In this document: piece after piece, positions 47,155 through 55,882 of the stretch | Layout of the letters: every line of letters starts with the position of its first letter | Position numbering within the stretch: position 1 is the stretch's first letter | Assembly (NCBI RefSeq): GCF_019972115.1 | Contig: NZ_BPFJ01000001.1 | Coordinates: forward strand, 744,001-808,000 | From: Sulfurovum sp. TSL6 | Lineage (GTDB): Bacteria; Campylobacterota; Campylobacteria; Campylobacterales; Sulfurovaceae | Length of the DNA: 64,000 nucleotides | Reading direction: 5' to 3' | Made by a program: the position numbers and the translations under genes | Notes under the pieces: model-generated | What the model saw: only the letters and a program-made list of their open reading frames with translations | Told to the model about the DNA's origin: nothing | Database searches by the model: none

Positions 47155-48042
47155 TTAGTTTGAAGTATTGATATCAACCAATGTTGTTTGTCCTTTCAAG
47201 ACTTCAACATTATGTTTTTCATAGAAAAATTCATTATATATACCACCTGCTAGGTAGTCTGCCGTAATAAGAGTATAGTTTCCTTCACCAAGGTATGCCA
47301 ACGTAAAGTTACCATCACTAATATTGACATCGTCTGAGCTTACAGCATTCGGGAAAGGATCTAATTCATCATTCCAATCACCTTCTTTGTAAGCAAAAAC
47401 CCTCAAATTATTATGGTCTGAAAAATCAAGAACTGTTCCCCTAATCATACCTGAAAGTTCAGTGACCACCAATCTAATCACTGGTTTTAAATTATATTTT
47501 CCACTTCCTGTCGGAACAATTGATTTATATATATCGAAATCTGCAGTCACTTCGATTTTTGCATCAGCCGTGATATCAAATGCACCTTTACCTTTATAAC
47601 CGCTTTGTCCTCCACTAGGAACAAATAATGGCGCAGATGATCCATCAGACCATGTTATATTACAATCTGGATTACTTTTAACTTCTGACTCTTTTGTAGG
47701 GGCAGCCAATTTAAAGCGAATCTCCTGATAGTGACCTGCCGGCAGAATCATATTTCCCAAATGAAGTGATTTACCATCATGAAGTTCAAATAGGTTGAAT
47801 GTCTGAGGCTCGAAATCTTCAGCAGTGATCCAATTTCCCTCATAATTGTATTCAATACCAATAACAGCAATATTCACTTCTGTTACATTTACATCGTTTT
47901 CTTTATCCAACTGAGGTTGCGCATCAGTGATACTGAGTGATAAAGTACCCGTTGGAGTAGAAGAACCGCCTCCACAGCCTGTGATGAGTGTGATTAGTGT
48001 AAAAGCTAACACAATAGCTATCATATTATGAAATTTTTTCAT
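47155..48042 (-). CDS. DUF4382 surface lipoprotein
   Basis: 295 residues. The signal ends at the lipobox LITGC with Cys23, followed by GGGSSTP. DUF4382 covers about residues 30-200: GTLSLSITDAQPQLD, VTEVNIAVIGIEYNYEG, FNLFELHDGKSLHLGNMILPAGHYQEIRF and YNLKPVIRLVVTELSGMIRG. The last hundred residues look like a carboxypeptidase-regulatory-type beta sandwich (GNFTLAYLGEGNYTLITADYL). The protein is probably displayed on the cell surface. AAGGG lies six bases before the ATG. Two riboswitch-like RNAs precede it in the 5' leader (48090-48318), so its synthesis likely follows c-di-GMP levels, fitting an adhesion or matrix role (inference). Confidence 0.87.
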   Translation of the reverse strand: MKKFHNMIAIVLAFTLITLITGCGGGSSTPTGTLSLSITDAQPQLDKENDVNVTEVNIAVIGIEYNYEGNWITAEDFEPQTFNLFELHDGKSLHLGNMILPAGHYQEIRFKLAAPTKESEVKSNPDCNITWSDGSSAPLFVPSGGQSGYKGKGAFDITADAKIEVTADFDIYKSIVPTGSGKYNLKPVIRLVVTELSGMIRGTVLDFSDHNNLRVFAYKEGDWNDELDPFPNAVSSDDVNISDGNFTLAYLGEGNYTLITADYLAGGIYNEFFYEKHNVEVLKGQTTLVDINTSN

Positions 48043-48089
48043 AAATACCCTTTTTTATATATTGGATGTTGCGCAAAAGAAATATGAAT

Positions 48090-48173
48090 TTATTTTGGCA
48101 GCCTGGCGATCTTAAAATGAAGACCCATAGCTTTCCGTCCCTGCTTCACAACAGGTTTGGCACAACAAAATAA
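48090..48173 (-). ncRNA. Cyclic di-GMP-I riboswitch (GEMM-I), copy A
   Basis: Read on the minus strand, the RNA has an 8-bp closing stem P1 (UUAUUUUG with CAAAAUAA, 48166-48173 and 48090-48097). It also has GCCAAACC, a stem CCUGUU/AGCAGG capped by a GUGA tetraloop, the core GGGACGGAAAGC, a second stem with variable loop (GUCUU/AAGAU) and the closing GCCAGGCUGCC. This follows the GEMM-I plan, including a GNRA loop. The base before the core pair is G, as in c-di-GMP rather than cGAMP-type members. It lies 47 bases before the DUF4382 start, without an obvious terminator after it, which favours translational control. Copy B is 67 bases upstream. Confidence 0.85.
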
Positions 48174-48240
48174 TTTTGAATTAAATAGAATTTGCAGGCA
48201 GAACAAGTTGTAAAAGCAAAATAATACTTTTAGTATTGGT

Positions 48241-48318
48241 ATTTGGCAACCTGGCGATCTTAGAGTTAAGACCCATAGCTTTCCGTCCCTGCTTCACAAC
48301 AGGTTTGGCACAACAAAT
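48241..48318 (-). ncRNA. Cyclic di-GMP-I riboswitch (GEMM-I), copy B (upstream of copy A)
   Basis: The same core as copy A is present, but P1 differs (AUUUG with CAAAU, 48314-48318 and 48241-48245) and the second stem is longer (GUCUUA/UAAGAU with loop ACUC). Changes that preserve pairing are good evidence for a folded RNA. After it, on the minus strand, comes a weak hairpin AATACT/AGTATT (48223-48237) followed by a T-rich stretch, a possible attenuator. With copy A it forms a tandem sensor in the leader of the DUF4382 gene. A TATAAT box (minus strand, 48353-48358) lies 34 bases upstream. Confidence 0.85.
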
Positions 48319-48352
48319 TATATTTAAAAAGTCTCTTTACTATAACGTAGGT

Positions 48353-48358
48353 ATTATA
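48353..48358 (-). promoter_or_regulatory. Putative -10 box of the riboswitch leader
   Basis: TATAAT on the minus strand, 34 bases before the first base of riboswitch copy B. The same element at 55693-55698 lies 30 bases before copy C. No good -35 is visible, which is usual in Campylobacterota promoters. Confidence 0.45.
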
Positions 48359-48408: not shown

Positions 48409-50709
48409 TTATAATATTGGAACTTCAGTAACATTTTGTAAAAACTGTTTCTCAAACTCTTCTACATCTACAGCTTTGGAAAAATGATATCCTTGATACC
48501 TAAGTTTTGGATCTAGCCCTCTAAGCAGCTCTAGTTGCTGTTCGTTTTCAATACCTTCTATAATGATGTTATAGTTGAATTGTCTTCCTATGTCCAATAT
48601 ACTTGAAACAAGATGTACTTCACTAGGGTTGAATTCTATATTTTTTATAAATTCCTTATCTATTTTCAATGTATGGAAAGAAAGCTTCTTTAGATAAGAT
48701 AAAGAAGAGTAGCCTGTACCAAAATCATCAATGGCACATCTTACTCCTTGCCTACGTAACTCATTAATGACATCCTCTGTATTATCAAAATTATCAATCA
48801 GTGATCGTTCTGTGATCTCTATCATGATGTCATGAGTCTCTAGTCCATATTTTCTTAACTTGTTAAGGAATTCCCTAGCAAAATTATTTTCTACAAATTG
48901 CTGTGCATTCACATTGATCGAAACATACTCCAGGTTCCAGCTATTCTCTTTTTTCCATTGAGCTATATGCTGGCATACATTATCAAGAACCCACCATGTA
49001 ATCTGTGAGATCAAACCTGCTTTAATAGCCAATGGTATAAAATCCTGCGGTGACAGGGCTCCTCTTGTCGGATGATCCCAACGTACAAGTGCCTCAGCAG
49101 AGCACACTACATCTTCATCTATGGAAACTACGGGTTGATAAAAAAGACCCAACTGATTATTTTTGACTGCATATACCAGGTCATGCTGAAGCATAAATAG
49201 CTCTTTTTGTTGTTTGTCTAAAGAAGAATCATAATATGCAACATGTCCATTATCATTCTTTGCTTGATACATTGAAAGATCTGCATGTCTTATGATCTCT
49301 ACGATATTCGTATAAGCAGGTTTCATAATAACGATACCTATACTTGATTTAATATGTAAATGCATCTCTTTGATGATAAAGGGTTCTAAGAAAAGATCCT
49401 GTATCTCTCTAGAAAACTCTTCAGCTTCTTTATGAGCCATGTTTTTATCTTCTGATACATGTGGAATAATAATGATAAATTCATCTCCACCCAATCTGCT
49501 GACCATACAATCTTTTCCTAAGTTATCGGTCAAACGTTTAGATACAGCAAGAAGTACATCATCTCCCACTTGATGCCCCAAAGAGTCATTAATGCTTTTA
49601 AACTGATTAAGATCAAGATAAAAAAGTATTGAAAAATATGTTTTATGTTTTACACTCGTTACAAGTTTCTCCATATAGTTCCTAAAACCTCTACGATTGA
49701 ACAAACCGGTAAGTACATCATGTTGCACCAAATATTCAAGCTCTGTTAAGGCGGTATGTTCTTTCGTTTTATCCTCTATCATACCTACGCCACCCAAAAC
49801 ATTATTATCTGAATCACTAAAAGAAAAAACTTTTGCATCTATCCAAAATGGCTTATTATTGAGGGATACATATGGACCTTCATAAGATTGTGTACCCTCA
49901 CTAATTGCATTTTTTAATACTTTTAATATACGTCTGTCTGGAAGCATACGAAGATCCATTCCTGTGATCTTCTCTTTTTCATGCTCAAATAATGTCTTTA
50001 ATTGTTCATTACACTCTAGTACCTTTAAATCTTTATTATAGGTAAAGATACCAAGAGGTGCATTTTTAAATAAACTATTTAAAAGCATATGTTCCGATTG
50101 CAACATATTAAAAGCATTTTTTTGTTGATACATATTATAGATGTTGGTCACTTGTGCAAGAAAATACAAGATCAGTGAAATGGTAAGTATGATATGCAAA
50201 GGCGTATCATGAAGCAATGCCATAGAAAAAATAAGAGGCAATAAAAGAATAGTTGAATACATGATATTGAGTCGTGCATCTGCCGATAAAGAAACTGTAG
50301 AACCTAAAGACAATCCTAAAAGTACCGCAACAATATAAAGTTGATAATAGTGATCTACCTGATGTATAAAAATAAAACCTAATGTTGAAAAAACAAGTGC
50401 AGTCAATATTGCATCAACGACAAATTTTTTATACCATAATGCCATGGAGTATTTTTTAGGATTTTGTTTAAAACTATAAGCAGAATAAAGTCTATATCCT
50501 GTTAAGATCATCAAGATCAGTGACCACACTAGAATACTGCCATCAAGTATTGGGTATAAAGCTACAATGATTAAAATAGCTAATAGAACAACAACTAACA
50601 GTGCTCTCGTCGAAAGTGTATACAATGAATTGACTACAGAGTCATCAACCGTTTGAAGCTCTTTTATGTTCGAGAATAATCTTTTTAAATTCATACAACA
50701 TTGTAGCAT
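48409..50709 (-). CDS. Membrane GGDEF-EAL protein with PAS domain
   Basis: 766 residues: about six membrane helices in residues 30-195, a PAS domain (SLFKNAPLGIFTYNKDLKVLECNEQ) at 205-320, a GGDEF domain at 335-490 with RLGGDEFIIII intact but no upstream RxxD inhibitory site, and an EAL domain at 505-755. The EAL residues are all present: SAEALVRW, INVNAQQ, EITER, AIDDFGTGYSS, LKIDKEF and EGIENE. It should be able to break down c-di-GMP and perhaps make it, in response to a membrane or PAS signal. Its start, ATG at 50709, follows AGGG; an alternative is 50694. It lies just upstream of, and on the same strand as, the tandem riboswitches. Confidence 0.92.
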   Translation of the reverse strand: MLQCCMNLKRLFSNIKELQTVDDSVVNSLYTLSTRALLVVVLLAILIIVALYPILDGSILVWSLILMILTGYRLYSAYSFKQNPKKYSMALWYKKFVVDAILTALVFSTLGFIFIHQVDHYYQLYIVAVLLGLSLGSTVSLSADARLNIMYSTILLLPLIFSMALLHDTPLHIILTISLILYFLAQVTNIYNMYQQKNAFNMLQSEHMLLNSLFKNAPLGIFTYNKDLKVLECNEQLKTLFEHEKEKITGMDLRMLPDRRILKVLKNAISEGTQSYEGPYVSLNNKPFWIDAKVFSFSDSDNNVLGGVGMIEDKTKEHTALTELEYLVQHDVLTGLFNRRGFRNYMEKLVTSVKHKTYFSILFYLDLNQFKSINDSLGHQVGDDVLLAVSKRLTDNLGKDCMVSRLGGDEFIIIIPHVSEDKNMAHKEAEEFSREIQDLFLEPFIIKEMHLHIKSSIGIVIMKPAYTNIVEIIRHADLSMYQAKNDNGHVAYYDSSLDKQQKELFMLQHDLVYAVKNNQLGLFYQPVVSIDEDVVCSAEALVRWDHPTRGALSPQDFIPLAIKAGLISQITWWVLDNVCQHIAQWKKENSWNLEYVSINVNAQQFVENNFAREFLNKLRKYGLETHDIMIEITERSLIDNFDNTEDVINELRRQGVRCAIDDFGTGYSSLSYLKKLSFHTLKIDKEFIKNIEFNPSEVHLVSSILDIGRQFNYNIIIEGIENEQQLELLRGLDPKLRYQGYHFSKAVDVEEFEKQFLQNVTEVPIL

Positions 50710-52183: not shown

Positions 52184-52256
52184 ATGGATTGTTTTATAAC
52201 AATCCATAGGGGGGATATTAGTATTCTAATATCAATTAGGTTTGACACTTGGTGTC
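52184..52256 (+). promoter_or_regulatory. Three consecutive hairpins in the cytochrome 5' leader
   Basis: Hairpin 1: ATGGATTGTT/AACAATCCAT (52184-52207, loop TTAT). Hairpin 2: GATATTAG/CTAATATC (52214-52233, loop TATT). Hairpin 3: GACAC/GTGTC (52244-52256). All are perfect and lie 31 bases or more before the cytochrome ATG at 52287. No riboswitch class known to me fits; the stretch may stabilise the mRNA or regulate translation. Confidence 0.55.
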
Positions 52257-52286
52257 TTGAACATAATTAGACTAAAAGGAAGAAGA

Positions 52287-54704
52287 ATGAAGTTAAATAC
52301 TAAAGCATTAATGCTTTTGTTAACTGTGGGAGTCGTTTTTTCATTAAGCGGATGTGGTGATGGTAGCAGCACATCTACAGTAACAACAGTTACAGACAGT
52401 GATCCTGCTCCAGGCGAGTTAGGCTATCAGATAGTTACAGATCAAAATATCACCTATGTCGACTACACCGGAGGTACACGTGTATCACCGCTATCTGCTG
52501 CAGCAGCTGAATATCATACTGGCATAAAATACGGAAATACACTCTTTGACAGTGCCGATAATAAATGTATGAACTGTCATAATGAACTCTATGACACATG
52601 GAAAGGTTCTATGCATGGAAAATCGTGGACAGATCCGATATTCCAATCTAAGTTCCAGGATTTCTTACGTACACACTTAGCAAAAATTGGTGAGGTAAAA
52701 GATATAGAATACCAGCAAAAAGACATTATTAATGGTACTTCTGTAGGAACTAACAACATGTTTAGTGGTGCAGCACAAACATGTATCAAATGTCATGCTC
52801 CAGGTGCTTACTATGCAGGTGATGTAAGAGTAACAGTAACTGATGTAGGAAGTGCACTAGACCTTAACAATACAGAGTTAAAAGGTCTAAAGGCATTACA
52901 TGAACCAGCAGTACAGGATCCAAATGGAGAGATCGCAGTTATTGCTGCAAATCCTCAAACAGATAGAGTATATAAAGCAACATTCCAGATCGGACATGAA
53001 GCCAATCGTGAAGGTATTAACTGTGCGTTCTGTCATAGCATAGAGACGCCTAGACTAATGAAAGAATATGGTATGGATAACGGTATTTATACTTTAGCTA
53101 AAGATATGCGTGTAGGCCCTCATGGACCTATCAAGCAAGAAGCAGGAACTGATCTAACATATCATGATGATGCTACTCATGCTAATATGAATAAATTCTT
53201 TAGACTTTGGGGACCTGAAAAATATGCTGACTACAATGCAACACCAAAAGGTGTGAATTACTTGGCTGATGCAGGTGAATTTGATGAAGGTAAAACCGTT
53301 GATGGTCGTTATACAATGACAAGTAAAGATATCAATGGAACAAATGGCAAAGTACACTTTACTGGTGGACCGTTCTACGGACCATATGGTGTCACAGGTA
53401 CTAACAATGAAAACGAAACAGATCAGACAGATAGAAAAGCACAGATCAATCCACATTATGAAGTGGAATTAAACAACCACTTTGGAGAAAGCGGTAAAGG
53501 CTTATGTCTTTCATGTCATCAACGTTCTGCAGGGGCAGCAGTACCAGGCGGTGAAGATGGTGAAGGTCACTTTATGGAACTTTGTTCAACACAAATGGCT
53601 GTGACTACAGGTACTGATGTAGCTTCCAGTGACACATTAAGTTCACCGAAATGTCAAAAATGTCATATGGAAAGAATAGAAGGTACAGTACTACACCAAT
53701 GGGCACGTCCAGATAAGTTATGGACACTCGCAGATAATCCTAATCTAACTGCTCACTTTGATCCTACGGATCCAGAAAGTCATGGTGATGAAAACCCTGT
53801 AGCTGCTGGTTGGTTAAACTCACATGCATTCTTAGGTGCAAGTAAAACAGGTCAAAAAACAAGTGTTACTGCTAAGATCCAAAGTGGATTTGAAGCGAAA
53901 GTAAATGAATCAGTGTCAAATGATGGTAACGCATTAACAGTGACTACTGCACTAACAAATAAGACTGCACACATGTTCCCAGGTGCACACCCTATGCGTC
54001 GTGTATTAACACGTTTGATCGTGACATCTGACCAAGGTATAGTTCCTATTAGTACTAGTACTGGTGACTCTTCCTTTGATTATATTGAAAATAATGTACA
54101 ACCATTAGCTGGTAAAGTACTTCACTCAAGTGCATTAACTCCAGTTCCAGTTGCCAATAATGGAAGCGAAAATTTAGACTTCCCTGGAAAAGTAACAGAC
54201 TTGAATGGCTCAGAAGTAAGTGGGCAGAAATTTGATGGTACAAAATACACTATTACGGGTGTAGATGCAACAGTAAGCTTCGACACGCAATCTACAGATA
54301 ACAGTGGAGTAACAACAGGTACTGTAACAAATGCAGCGATAGTCGTAGATAGTAATAACTCTACGTTTACTCGTATTTATGGACATGAAACAGGTAAAAG
54401 GTATGATGCAAATGGTAAGCCAAGTAAGAACACTAGCGATACCTTTATTGTACGTCCTGGATTTGACTCATGGATGGTTGAAAAAGATAACCGCCTAAGT
54501 CCTAATGAAACAGAAACATATACACTGACTTACGATATCACAGGTAAAACGAATGTGAAAGTAGAATATAGAGTATACTACATGCAAAAAGGTGCTAATG
54601 GTAAATTCGTCGTTGATCCGGCTACTGGTTTCCTAGACCAAGCTAAGAGTGATGCGAAGAAACTATTGGTTACAGAAGTATATAGATATCCAGAATCACC
54701 TTAG
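52287..54704 (+). CDS. Five-heme c-type cytochrome lipoprotein
   Basis: The ATG at 52287 follows AGGAAGAAG; a longer start at 52242 lies inside the leader hairpins. The 805-residue protein has a lipobox LSGC (Cys23). Five CxxCH heme sites follow: CMNCH 94-98, CIKCH 166-170, CAFCH 246-250, CLSCH 407-411 and CQKCH 456-460. The N-terminal 460 residues resemble cytochrome c554-type multiheme proteins. Residues 461-805 are beta-rich without hemes (NALTVTTALTNKTAHMFPGAHPMRR is notable). It is probably anchored to the outer membrane and carries electrons; the exact partner is unknown. No porin gene is near. A good terminator follows. Confidence 0.86.
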   Translation: MKLNTKALMLLLTVGVVFSLSGCGDGSSTSTVTTVTDSDPAPGELGYQIVTDQNITYVDYTGGTRVSPLSAAAAEYHTGIKYGNTLFDSADNKCMNCHNELYDTWKGSMHGKSWTDPIFQSKFQDFLRTHLAKIGEVKDIEYQQKDIINGTSVGTNNMFSGAAQTCIKCHAPGAYYAGDVRVTVTDVGSALDLNNTELKGLKALHEPAVQDPNGEIAVIAANPQTDRVYKATFQIGHEANREGINCAFCHSIETPRLMKEYGMDNGIYTLAKDMRVGPHGPIKQEAGTDLTYHDDATHANMNKFFRLWGPEKYADYNATPKGVNYLADAGEFDEGKTVDGRYTMTSKDINGTNGKVHFTGGPFYGPYGVTGTNNENETDQTDRKAQINPHYEVELNNHFGESGKGLCLSCHQRSAGAAVPGGEDGEGHFMELCSTQMAVTTGTDVASSDTLSSPKCQKCHMERIEGTVLHQWARPDKLWTLADNPNLTAHFDPTDPESHGDENPVAAGWLNSHAFLGASKTGQKTSVTAKIQSGFEAKVNESVSNDGNALTVTTALTNKTAHMFPGAHPMRRVLTRLIVTSDQGIVPISTSTGDSSFDYIENNVQPLAGKVLHSSALTPVPVANNGSENLDFPGKVTDLNGSEVSGQKFDGTKYTITGVDATVSFDTQSTDNSGVTTGTVTNAAIVVDSNNSTFTRIYGHETGKRYDANGKPSKNTSDTFIVRPGFDSWMVEKDNRLSPNETETYTLTYDITGKTNVKVEYRVYYMQKGANGKFVVDPATGFLDQAKSDAKKLLVTEVYRYPESP

Positions 54705-54985: not shown

Positions 54986-55423
54986 CTAAGGAATAAAAAA
55001 AGCCAAGACAGCACCAACAGTTATAAACAAATACGCACCTATAGACCATAATTCAATGGTAGTAGGTACTTCCTGCACACCAAGAAAATTACTGATGGAC
55101 ATACCGCCATAGAAATAAAATAAAAAATAGCTAATCACGAACCCCAAAGTATAAGGTATAAAGACAATCCCTAGAAGTAAAGAAACCTCTGCATATTTCT
55201 TAAAAAGATCAGTCAATTCATTTTTTAGAGTAAACTTAGGGCCTAATTTTTGACTTTTGACACGGTTTTTCAAAAATGTTTTCTTTGGTTTAGAGAAAGG
55301 GTCATGAGAAACAGTTTCTTCTTTCGTATCCTCTATAAGTTGTTCTTGATTATCTTTTGATACTTGTGTAAGCGCATCCCAGTCTAAATTTTCTTCTTCT
55401 ATAGTCTCTTCTCTTACGTACAT
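54986..55423 (-). CDS. 145-residue two-helix membrane protein under riboswitch control
   Basis: AAAGGA lies seven bases before the ATG. Residues 1-75 are acidic and then basic (ETIEEENLDWDALTQVSKDN, KPKKTFLKNRVKSQKLGPKF). Two membrane helices follow (VSLLLGIVFIPYTLGFVISYFLFYF and LWSIGAYLFITVGAVLAFFI), joined by a GGMSISNFLGVQEVP loop. I do not recognise the family. A c-di-GMP-I riboswitch-like RNA lies about 165 bases upstream (55588-55662), so the gene is probably a c-di-GMP target; pili, secretion or attachment roles are possible but not shown by the sequence. Confidence 0.75.
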   Translation of the reverse strand: MYVREETIEEENLDWDALTQVSKDNQEQLIEDTKEETVSHDPFSKPKKTFLKNRVKSQKLGPKFTLKNELTDLFKKYAEVSLLLGIVFIPYTLGFVISYFLFYFYGGMSISNFLGVQEVPTTIELWSIGAYLFITVGAVLAFFIP

Positions 55424-55587
55424 GATGATCCTTTACTGTAGGTATTGCATCTTTAAAAACTCTGTTTAAGTGTCATACACTATATGATATGGGTTCGTTT
55501 TTATTAGAACAAAATAATTTAAATTAAATAAGATTTATGCATAAAAGAGTAAAGTAGAACATATACATAAAATACAAGTATTCGTAT

Positions 55588-55662
55588 GTAGCAACCTGGC
55601 AATCTTAATCTACTAAGACCCATAGCTTTCCGTCCCTGCTTCACAACAAGTTTGGCTCAATC
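55588..55662 (-). ncRNA. Cyclic di-GMP-I riboswitch (GEMM-I), copy C
   Basis: On the minus strand it has GAGCCAAAC, the stem CUUGUU/AGCAGG with GUGA loop (one C-G pair now U-G), the identical core GGGACGGAAAGC, a second stem GUCUUA/UAAGAU with loop GUAGAU-like variation, and GCCAGGUUGC. P1 is weaker than in copies A and B. A TATAAT box lies at 55693-55698 (minus). No clear terminator lies in the 165 bases before the 145-aa gene, so the expression platform is unresolved. Most of the gene-free stretch from 55663 to 55882 is AT-rich DNA in which I see nothing else. Confidence 0.82.
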
Positions 55663-55882
55663 AATAATATTTAAAAATAACTTTCGTAATTGATTATATT
55701 GGATATATAATTAAATAAATCTTACACTCTATTCAATAAGCAGAGGCATTTGCAAAACAAATAATTATATTTATCCTTTATTATTTTTGGCCATTTTTAA
55801 TGATCTTTTACTATGAATACCAAGCCAATAGACTTCATATCTACACGTGTCATTATTATTTTTTAGAAAAATAGACATCTAT

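Follow-up and report, generated by a model that had tools for sequence, protein, structure and literature searches.

The 5' leader of the DUF4382 lipoprotein gene of Sulfurovum sp. TSL6 carries a complete pair of c-di-GMP-I aptamers, and their sequence and setting make it likely, with a probability of about 85%, that they act as cis-acting c-di-GMP switches. Throughout the text, the window is the whole 64-kb stretch of DNA analysed. The gene, the aptamers and the elements around them are all on the minus strand:

48409..50709, minus strand: gene for a PAS-GGDEF-EAL protein, the immediate upstream neighbour, ending 90 nt 5' of copy 1
48353..48358, minus strand: candidate -10 element TATAAT, from sequence, 35-40 nt 5' of copy 1
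48339-48344, minus strand: second candidate -10 element, TATAGT
48241..48318, minus strand: upstream c-di-GMP-I aptamer (copy 1); cmscan RF03167 59.5 bits, RF01051 59.7 bits; contact residues (Vc2 numbering) G20 = 48309, A47 = 48282, C92 = 48246
48093..48170, minus strand: downstream c-di-GMP-I aptamer (copy 2), P1 reaching out to 48173 and 48090; cmscan RF03167 61.7 bits, RF01051 58.6 bits; contact residues G20 = 48161, A47 = 48134, C92 = 48098
48067..48082, minus strand: candidate switching strand of copy 2, proposed from pairing potential conserved in 13 aligned leaders
48074-48082, minus strand: UUUCUUUUG, which could base-pair with the 3' P1 strand CAAAA of copy 2
48067-48074, minus strand: GCGCAACA, able to pair with J1/2 UGUUGUGC
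48048..48054, minus strand: Shine-Dalgarno-like (SD) AAAAGGG, from sequence, 5' of the ATG at 48042
47155..48042, minus strand: DUF4382 lipoprotein, 295 aa; PF14321 99.5 bits over the whole profile

Detection and fold of the aptamer pair

A first-pass annotation had proposed tandem GEMM-I elements in this leader and named an Infernal search with RF01051 as the check. The elements are real: cmscan finds two complete aptamers of the same class within one leader, each with a match of 78 nt and the second ending 50 nt from the ATG of the DUF4382 gene, and the RF01051 scores of both lie far above the gathering cut-off of 35 bits. The cut-off of RF03167 (c-di-GMP-I-GGC), 59 bits, is exceeded barely, with E-values over the whole window of 3.8e-12 for copy 2 and 1.6e-11 for copy 1. 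A covariance model was trained on 30 aptamers taken from the genus and its neighbours, both window copies being among them; with this model and with filters off, the pair scored 92.7 and 93.6 bits and a third aptamer 86.0 bits, against a best background score of 10.9 bits elsewhere in the 64 kb. In the alignment of the same 30 aptamers 98.5% of cells are paired and two-sided changes occur in 10 of the 18 pairs, a covariation that covers the P2 and P3 helices of the c-di-GMP-I fold and was as high in none of 500 shuffles.

The motifs GCCAAACC, GGGACGGAAAGC and GCCAGG and the GUGA (GNRA) loop pointed out in the annotation are present in both copies, and its P1 stems, UUAUUUUG/CAAAAUAA (48166-48173 with 48090-48097) and AUUUG/CAAAU, were confirmed. 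Compared with Vc2-type c-di-GMP-I riboswitches (RF01051), the window copies are the same in fold, in the GNRA-capped P2 and in G20/A47/C92, but they have C21-G46 where Vc2 has G21-C46, and the leader adds platform strands that hardly vary and are complementary to J1/2 and P1. J1/2 also differs: it reads GUUGUG in both copies, with G at position 18, which departs from the usual consensus, and by the alignment it is probably one nucleotide shorter. The P1 pair to C93 is made by a G one place closer to G20 than in the consensus, and the expected P1 pair is flagged as non-standard in the cmscan alignment of the window copies.

The exact hexamer TATAAT is enriched upstream of the aptamers of the genus (35 of 177, against 13.6 in shuffles); the candidate at 48353..48358 was not listed by a two-hexamer promoter scan.

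Ligand prediction

Since both copies carry G20, A47 and C92, c-di-GMP, and not cGAMP, is the predicted ligand of both aptamers. The same three residues are found in 174 of the 178 distinct aptamers sampled, nearly all of them from the genus. The two-input response that had been considered for the tandem is unlikely in the form of a two-ligand gate, because the three contact residues are identical in the two copies.

It could be argued that the pair are cGAMP riboswitches (GEMM-Ib) as in Geobacter, where GEMM elements precede electron-transfer genes (PMC8683041), given that GEMM-Ib and the window aptamers belong to the same fold family and that a gene for a multihaem cytochrome-like lipoprotein lies near the aptamers in the window. 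We regard this as extremely improbable: GEMM-Ib is recognised by A at position 20, both copies have G20, cGAMP binding has been linked with G20A (and c-di-AMP binding with G20A/C92U; PMC7288161), A20 is combined with C92 in none of the 178 distinct aptamers sampled, and the cytochrome gene is on the opposite strand and without an aptamer. The product of this gene (52242-54704, plus strand) has several CXXCH motifs, and all its Pfam matches are below their cut-offs.

If the listed match of both copies to RF03167 (61.7 and 59.5 bits) were taken at face value, the pair would be placed in the c-di-GMP-I-GGC variant class and would have a different ligand or specificity. The copies resemble this family overall, with scores just above the cut-off, but its consensus has G at position 47, whereas both window copies have A in the printed alignment, as do 177 of the 178 distinct aptamers sampled, and RF01051 scores both copies about as well. 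From the name and the consensus we read "GGC" as residues 20/47/92. Membership in this class is thus very unlikely, and c-di-GMP is retained as the predicted ligand.

One aptamer 5' of a DUF4382 gene in another genome, G021 (L065:569-647, minus strand), has A20 and U92, a combination that binds c-di-AMP in an engineered Vc2 mutant (PMC7288161). It may represent a natural change of specificity or decay.

The DUF4382 lipoprotein and its association with aptamers

The assignment of the gene product to DUF4382 holds, with a score nearly 100 bits against the PF14321 cut-off of 25 bits and the lipobox LITGC. The protein consists of a signal peptide with the lipobox, the DUF4382 domain (31-187) and a C-terminal beta-sandwich (about 193-295), and its AlphaFold model (pLDDT 85.6) has two beta-sandwich domains. 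In fold comparison the C-terminal domain matches the rhamnogalacturonan lyase beta domain (Z 10.8, rmsd 2.4, 86 aligned) and also carboxypeptidase-regulatory/CnaB-like domains. For the DUF4382 domain by itself the matches are weak (best Z 6.6, rmsd 2.6, 94 aligned) and include several Bacteroides putative adhesins and fimbrillins; with the best Z under 8, they indicate only a shared arrangement. The modelled folds are compatible with a surface role and are not evidence of one. A sequence search of solved structures gave no match for DUF4382, no relative of the lipoprotein was found in viral contigs, and no significant fold match to it was found in BFVD. The same combination of DUF4382 domain and lipobox occurs in HVO_1030 of Haloferax volcanii, which appears in a published list as a lipobox protein with N-glycosylation (PMC8241124).

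A genus-wide search of Sulfurovum yielded 22 DUF4382 genes over the cut-off, and 19 of them, the window gene included, have one or two aptamers in the leader. The genes lacking an aptamer are the single-domain L059 and L061 and the two-domain paralogue L066; the genome of the window has a single DUF4382 gene. When 40 named DUF4382 loci were scanned, aptamers were present at all eight Sulfurovum-type loci and at none of the 32 outside Sulfurovum (L145 being without upstream sequence). Two intact copies occur at 10 of the 19 aptamer-bearing leaders, and several relatives have a single intact copy, so the tandem is not required for the association with DUF4382. In the window the gene directly upstream encodes a PAS-GGDEF-EAL protein with intact GGDEF and EAL motifs, and a homologous EAL-containing ORF is in the same place at loci L057, L058, L062 and L063. 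The upstream genes differ between locus groups, with several gene neighbourhoods, which means that the linkage of aptamer and DUF4382 is not merely shared synteny.

The lipoprotein had been described in the first-pass annotation as a c-di-GMP-controlled surface component. The first half of this description is a strong inference from the complete aptamers, their c-di-GMP-type residues and the conserved DUF4382 link; the second half agrees with the lipobox and with the over-representation of secreted proteins among genes that follow other aptamers of the genus. As the pairing of aptamers and DUF4382 recurs in Sulfurovum, the family is very probably part of a c-di-GMP-controlled surface programme.

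How the leader may switch

In the proposed mechanism c-di-GMP would bind and stabilise P1 and the J1/2 pocket. The competing pairings would be those of the 3' P1 strand CAAAA with the downstream UUCUUUUG and of J1/2 UGUUGUGC with the downstream GCAACA, and the balance between P1-J1/2 stabilisation and these alternatives would change translation of the lipoprotein, in either direction. A sharper response would be expected from a pair of copies that share one ligand, in line with tandem c-di-GMP-I systems already described. Since the terminator scan found no intrinsic terminator on the minus strand of this leader, translation is the more likely level of control. The platform strands UUC-UUUG and CAACA, together with their P1 and J1/2 partners, are near-invariant in the 13 aligned leaders, and one variable J1/2-platform pair occurs as U-G, C-G and U-A. 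Such conservation would be in keeping with a switch whose P1/J1/2, once ligand-bound, shuts out the platform pairings.

Folding gave a mixed picture. When P1 of the isolated copy 2 was locked, exposure of the SD dropped by a group mean of 0.206, compared with no more than 0.127 in any of 40 shuffles, although such group statistics are not independent because the leaders are related; for the window leader by itself, between 3 and 18 of 200 shuffles were as high, depending on the settings. This modelled result suggests OFF control. When the whole leader with its two aptamers was folded, little of this effect was left, the SD exposure being 0.56 when free and 0.42 with both aptamers locked. For copy 1, five of ten leaders reached at most 13 of 200 shuffles, with no consistent terminator. 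An energetic proof of the copy 2 switch was sought and abandoned: the energy gap between the best fold and the P1 state was no larger than with shuffled platforms. A complementarity between the SD and P1 of copy 1 (GGUAUUU/AAAUACC), seen by eye, was also discarded as AT-rich and probably due to chance.

Full-leader folds allow pairing between the GCGCAACA strand and J1/2 of copy 1 as well. This strand lies near the start codon and is complementary to J1/2 of either aptamer, so it might be freed only with both aptamers ligand-bound. Hence the idea that both aptamers share one platform, with J1/2 as the switching strand and an AND-type read-out of one ligand, which we consider unlikely. If true, it would give an AND-type response to a single ligand by way of J1/2.

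A terminator mechanism common to the aptamers of the genus was rejected, a good hairpin with a U-tract within about 110 nt being present at 16 of 176 aptamers and at 5 of 176 shuffled ones. Terminators with the 5' arm over the 3' P1 strand numbered 15 against 5.05 expected (at most 8 in 20 shuffles), and other terminators near the aptamers were not enriched. By analogy with Bc3-5, the P1-overlapping terminators suggest ON switches elsewhere in the genus.

A third aptamer and a possible history of the tandem cassettes

Further along the window, outside the region first annotated, the following features were found:

55587..55666, minus strand: third c-di-GMP-I aptamer, RF01051 59.9 bits
55508..55536, minus strand: relic behind the third aptamer, consisting of the inter-aptamer spacer and the 5' P1 strand left by a second aptamer that was lost
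54986-55423, minus strand: gene behind the third aptamer, a 145-aa membrane protein with family unassigned

The relic and the tandem leader share a collinear match of 30 nt at 87% identity (E 2e-5). A related observation comes from a locus 5' of an OMP-like gene (L017:1501-1580, minus strand, at C2:493685-493764 of the genome), where a loss of about 14 nt between GTTGTG repeats has removed part of the ligand pocket from the second member of a tandem pair. At most tandem loci the two copies are as alike as, or more alike than, copies of other loci; in the window pair the identity is 94.8% within the locus versus 89.9% and 86.4% between loci. The relic, the lost pocket and the likeness within loci together suggest, as a reading of the sequences, duplication, homogenisation and loss of the tandem cassettes.

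As loss occurs in the same genome, both in the second copy at C2:493685 and in the relic, and as the DUF4382 genes at L060 and L062 are preceded by degraded first copies, one or both of the window copies might likewise be decaying, with regulation lost. However, the window copies retain all contact residues and full pairing, and both have a compensatory C18-G31 where most relatives have U-A, which makes decay highly unlikely here.

Aptamers across Sulfurovum

The genome of the window (2.25 Mb) has 17 c-di-GMP-I matches and its relatives have up to 21. Such matches occur in 35 of the 37 Sulfurovum genomes sampled and, outside the genus, in 2 of 23 genomes of the order. The 123 genes behind aptamers were collected by the riboswitch search and are independent of DUF4382 except for two members. 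A hydrophobic N-terminus, by a crude pattern, was found in 66 of them (54%) versus 10 of 50 window ORFs (20%). The most frequent families were PAS (19), LysM (8), NlpC/P60 (7), CAP (7) and carboxypeptidase-regulatory (7), followed by DUF11, OMP barrel, Ig- and cadherin-like and NIT sensor domains. Secreted proteins are over-represented among the products of these genes, as are the PAS, LysM/NlpC, CAP and adhesin-like families. Those in the genome of the window encode, among others, hybrid histidine kinases, a further GGDEF-EAL protein, an OMP-like protein and lipoproteins of the carboxypeptidase-regulatory type.

Small proteins with PAS alone (about 137-150 aa; for example at L009, L012, L201, L203 and L253) are the commonest gene type behind the aptamers of the genus, which suggests c-di-GMP control of aerotaxis-like or redox sensing. 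On a 395-kb plasmid of Sulfurovum mangrovi (NZ_CP087125.1) we observed a c-di-GMP-I aptamer absent from the feature table (L260:2491-2571), about 100 nt 5' of an L,D-transpeptidase family gene.

Relation to known systems and significance

A tandem c-di-GMP-I pair is an already known arrangement, with 347 doublets and 12 triplets reported (PMC9481103), found here in a little-noticed clade; Campylobacterota are unmentioned in the main text of a 2025 survey of contiguous riboswitches. Bc3-5, the triple tandem before cspABCDE in Bacillus thuringiensis (PMC4759541), likewise consists of complete same-class aptamers before genes of cell-surface proteins. Bc3-5 has a terminator per copy and turns transcription ON, whereas no such terminator was found in the window leader. 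The library searched, from which most subscription papers are absent, covers DUF4382 by a single table entry in one paper and contained no description of the DUF4382-aptamer tie, of the expansion in Sulfurovum or of a c-di-GMP regulon there.

With a predicted c-di-GMP sensor conserved before DUF4382 in a single genus, there is now a condition under which use of this protein can be tested. In addition, the number of riboswitches in Sulfurovum sketches out a c-di-GMP regulon in Campylobacterota that would comprise surface, PAS/kinase and cell-wall genes.
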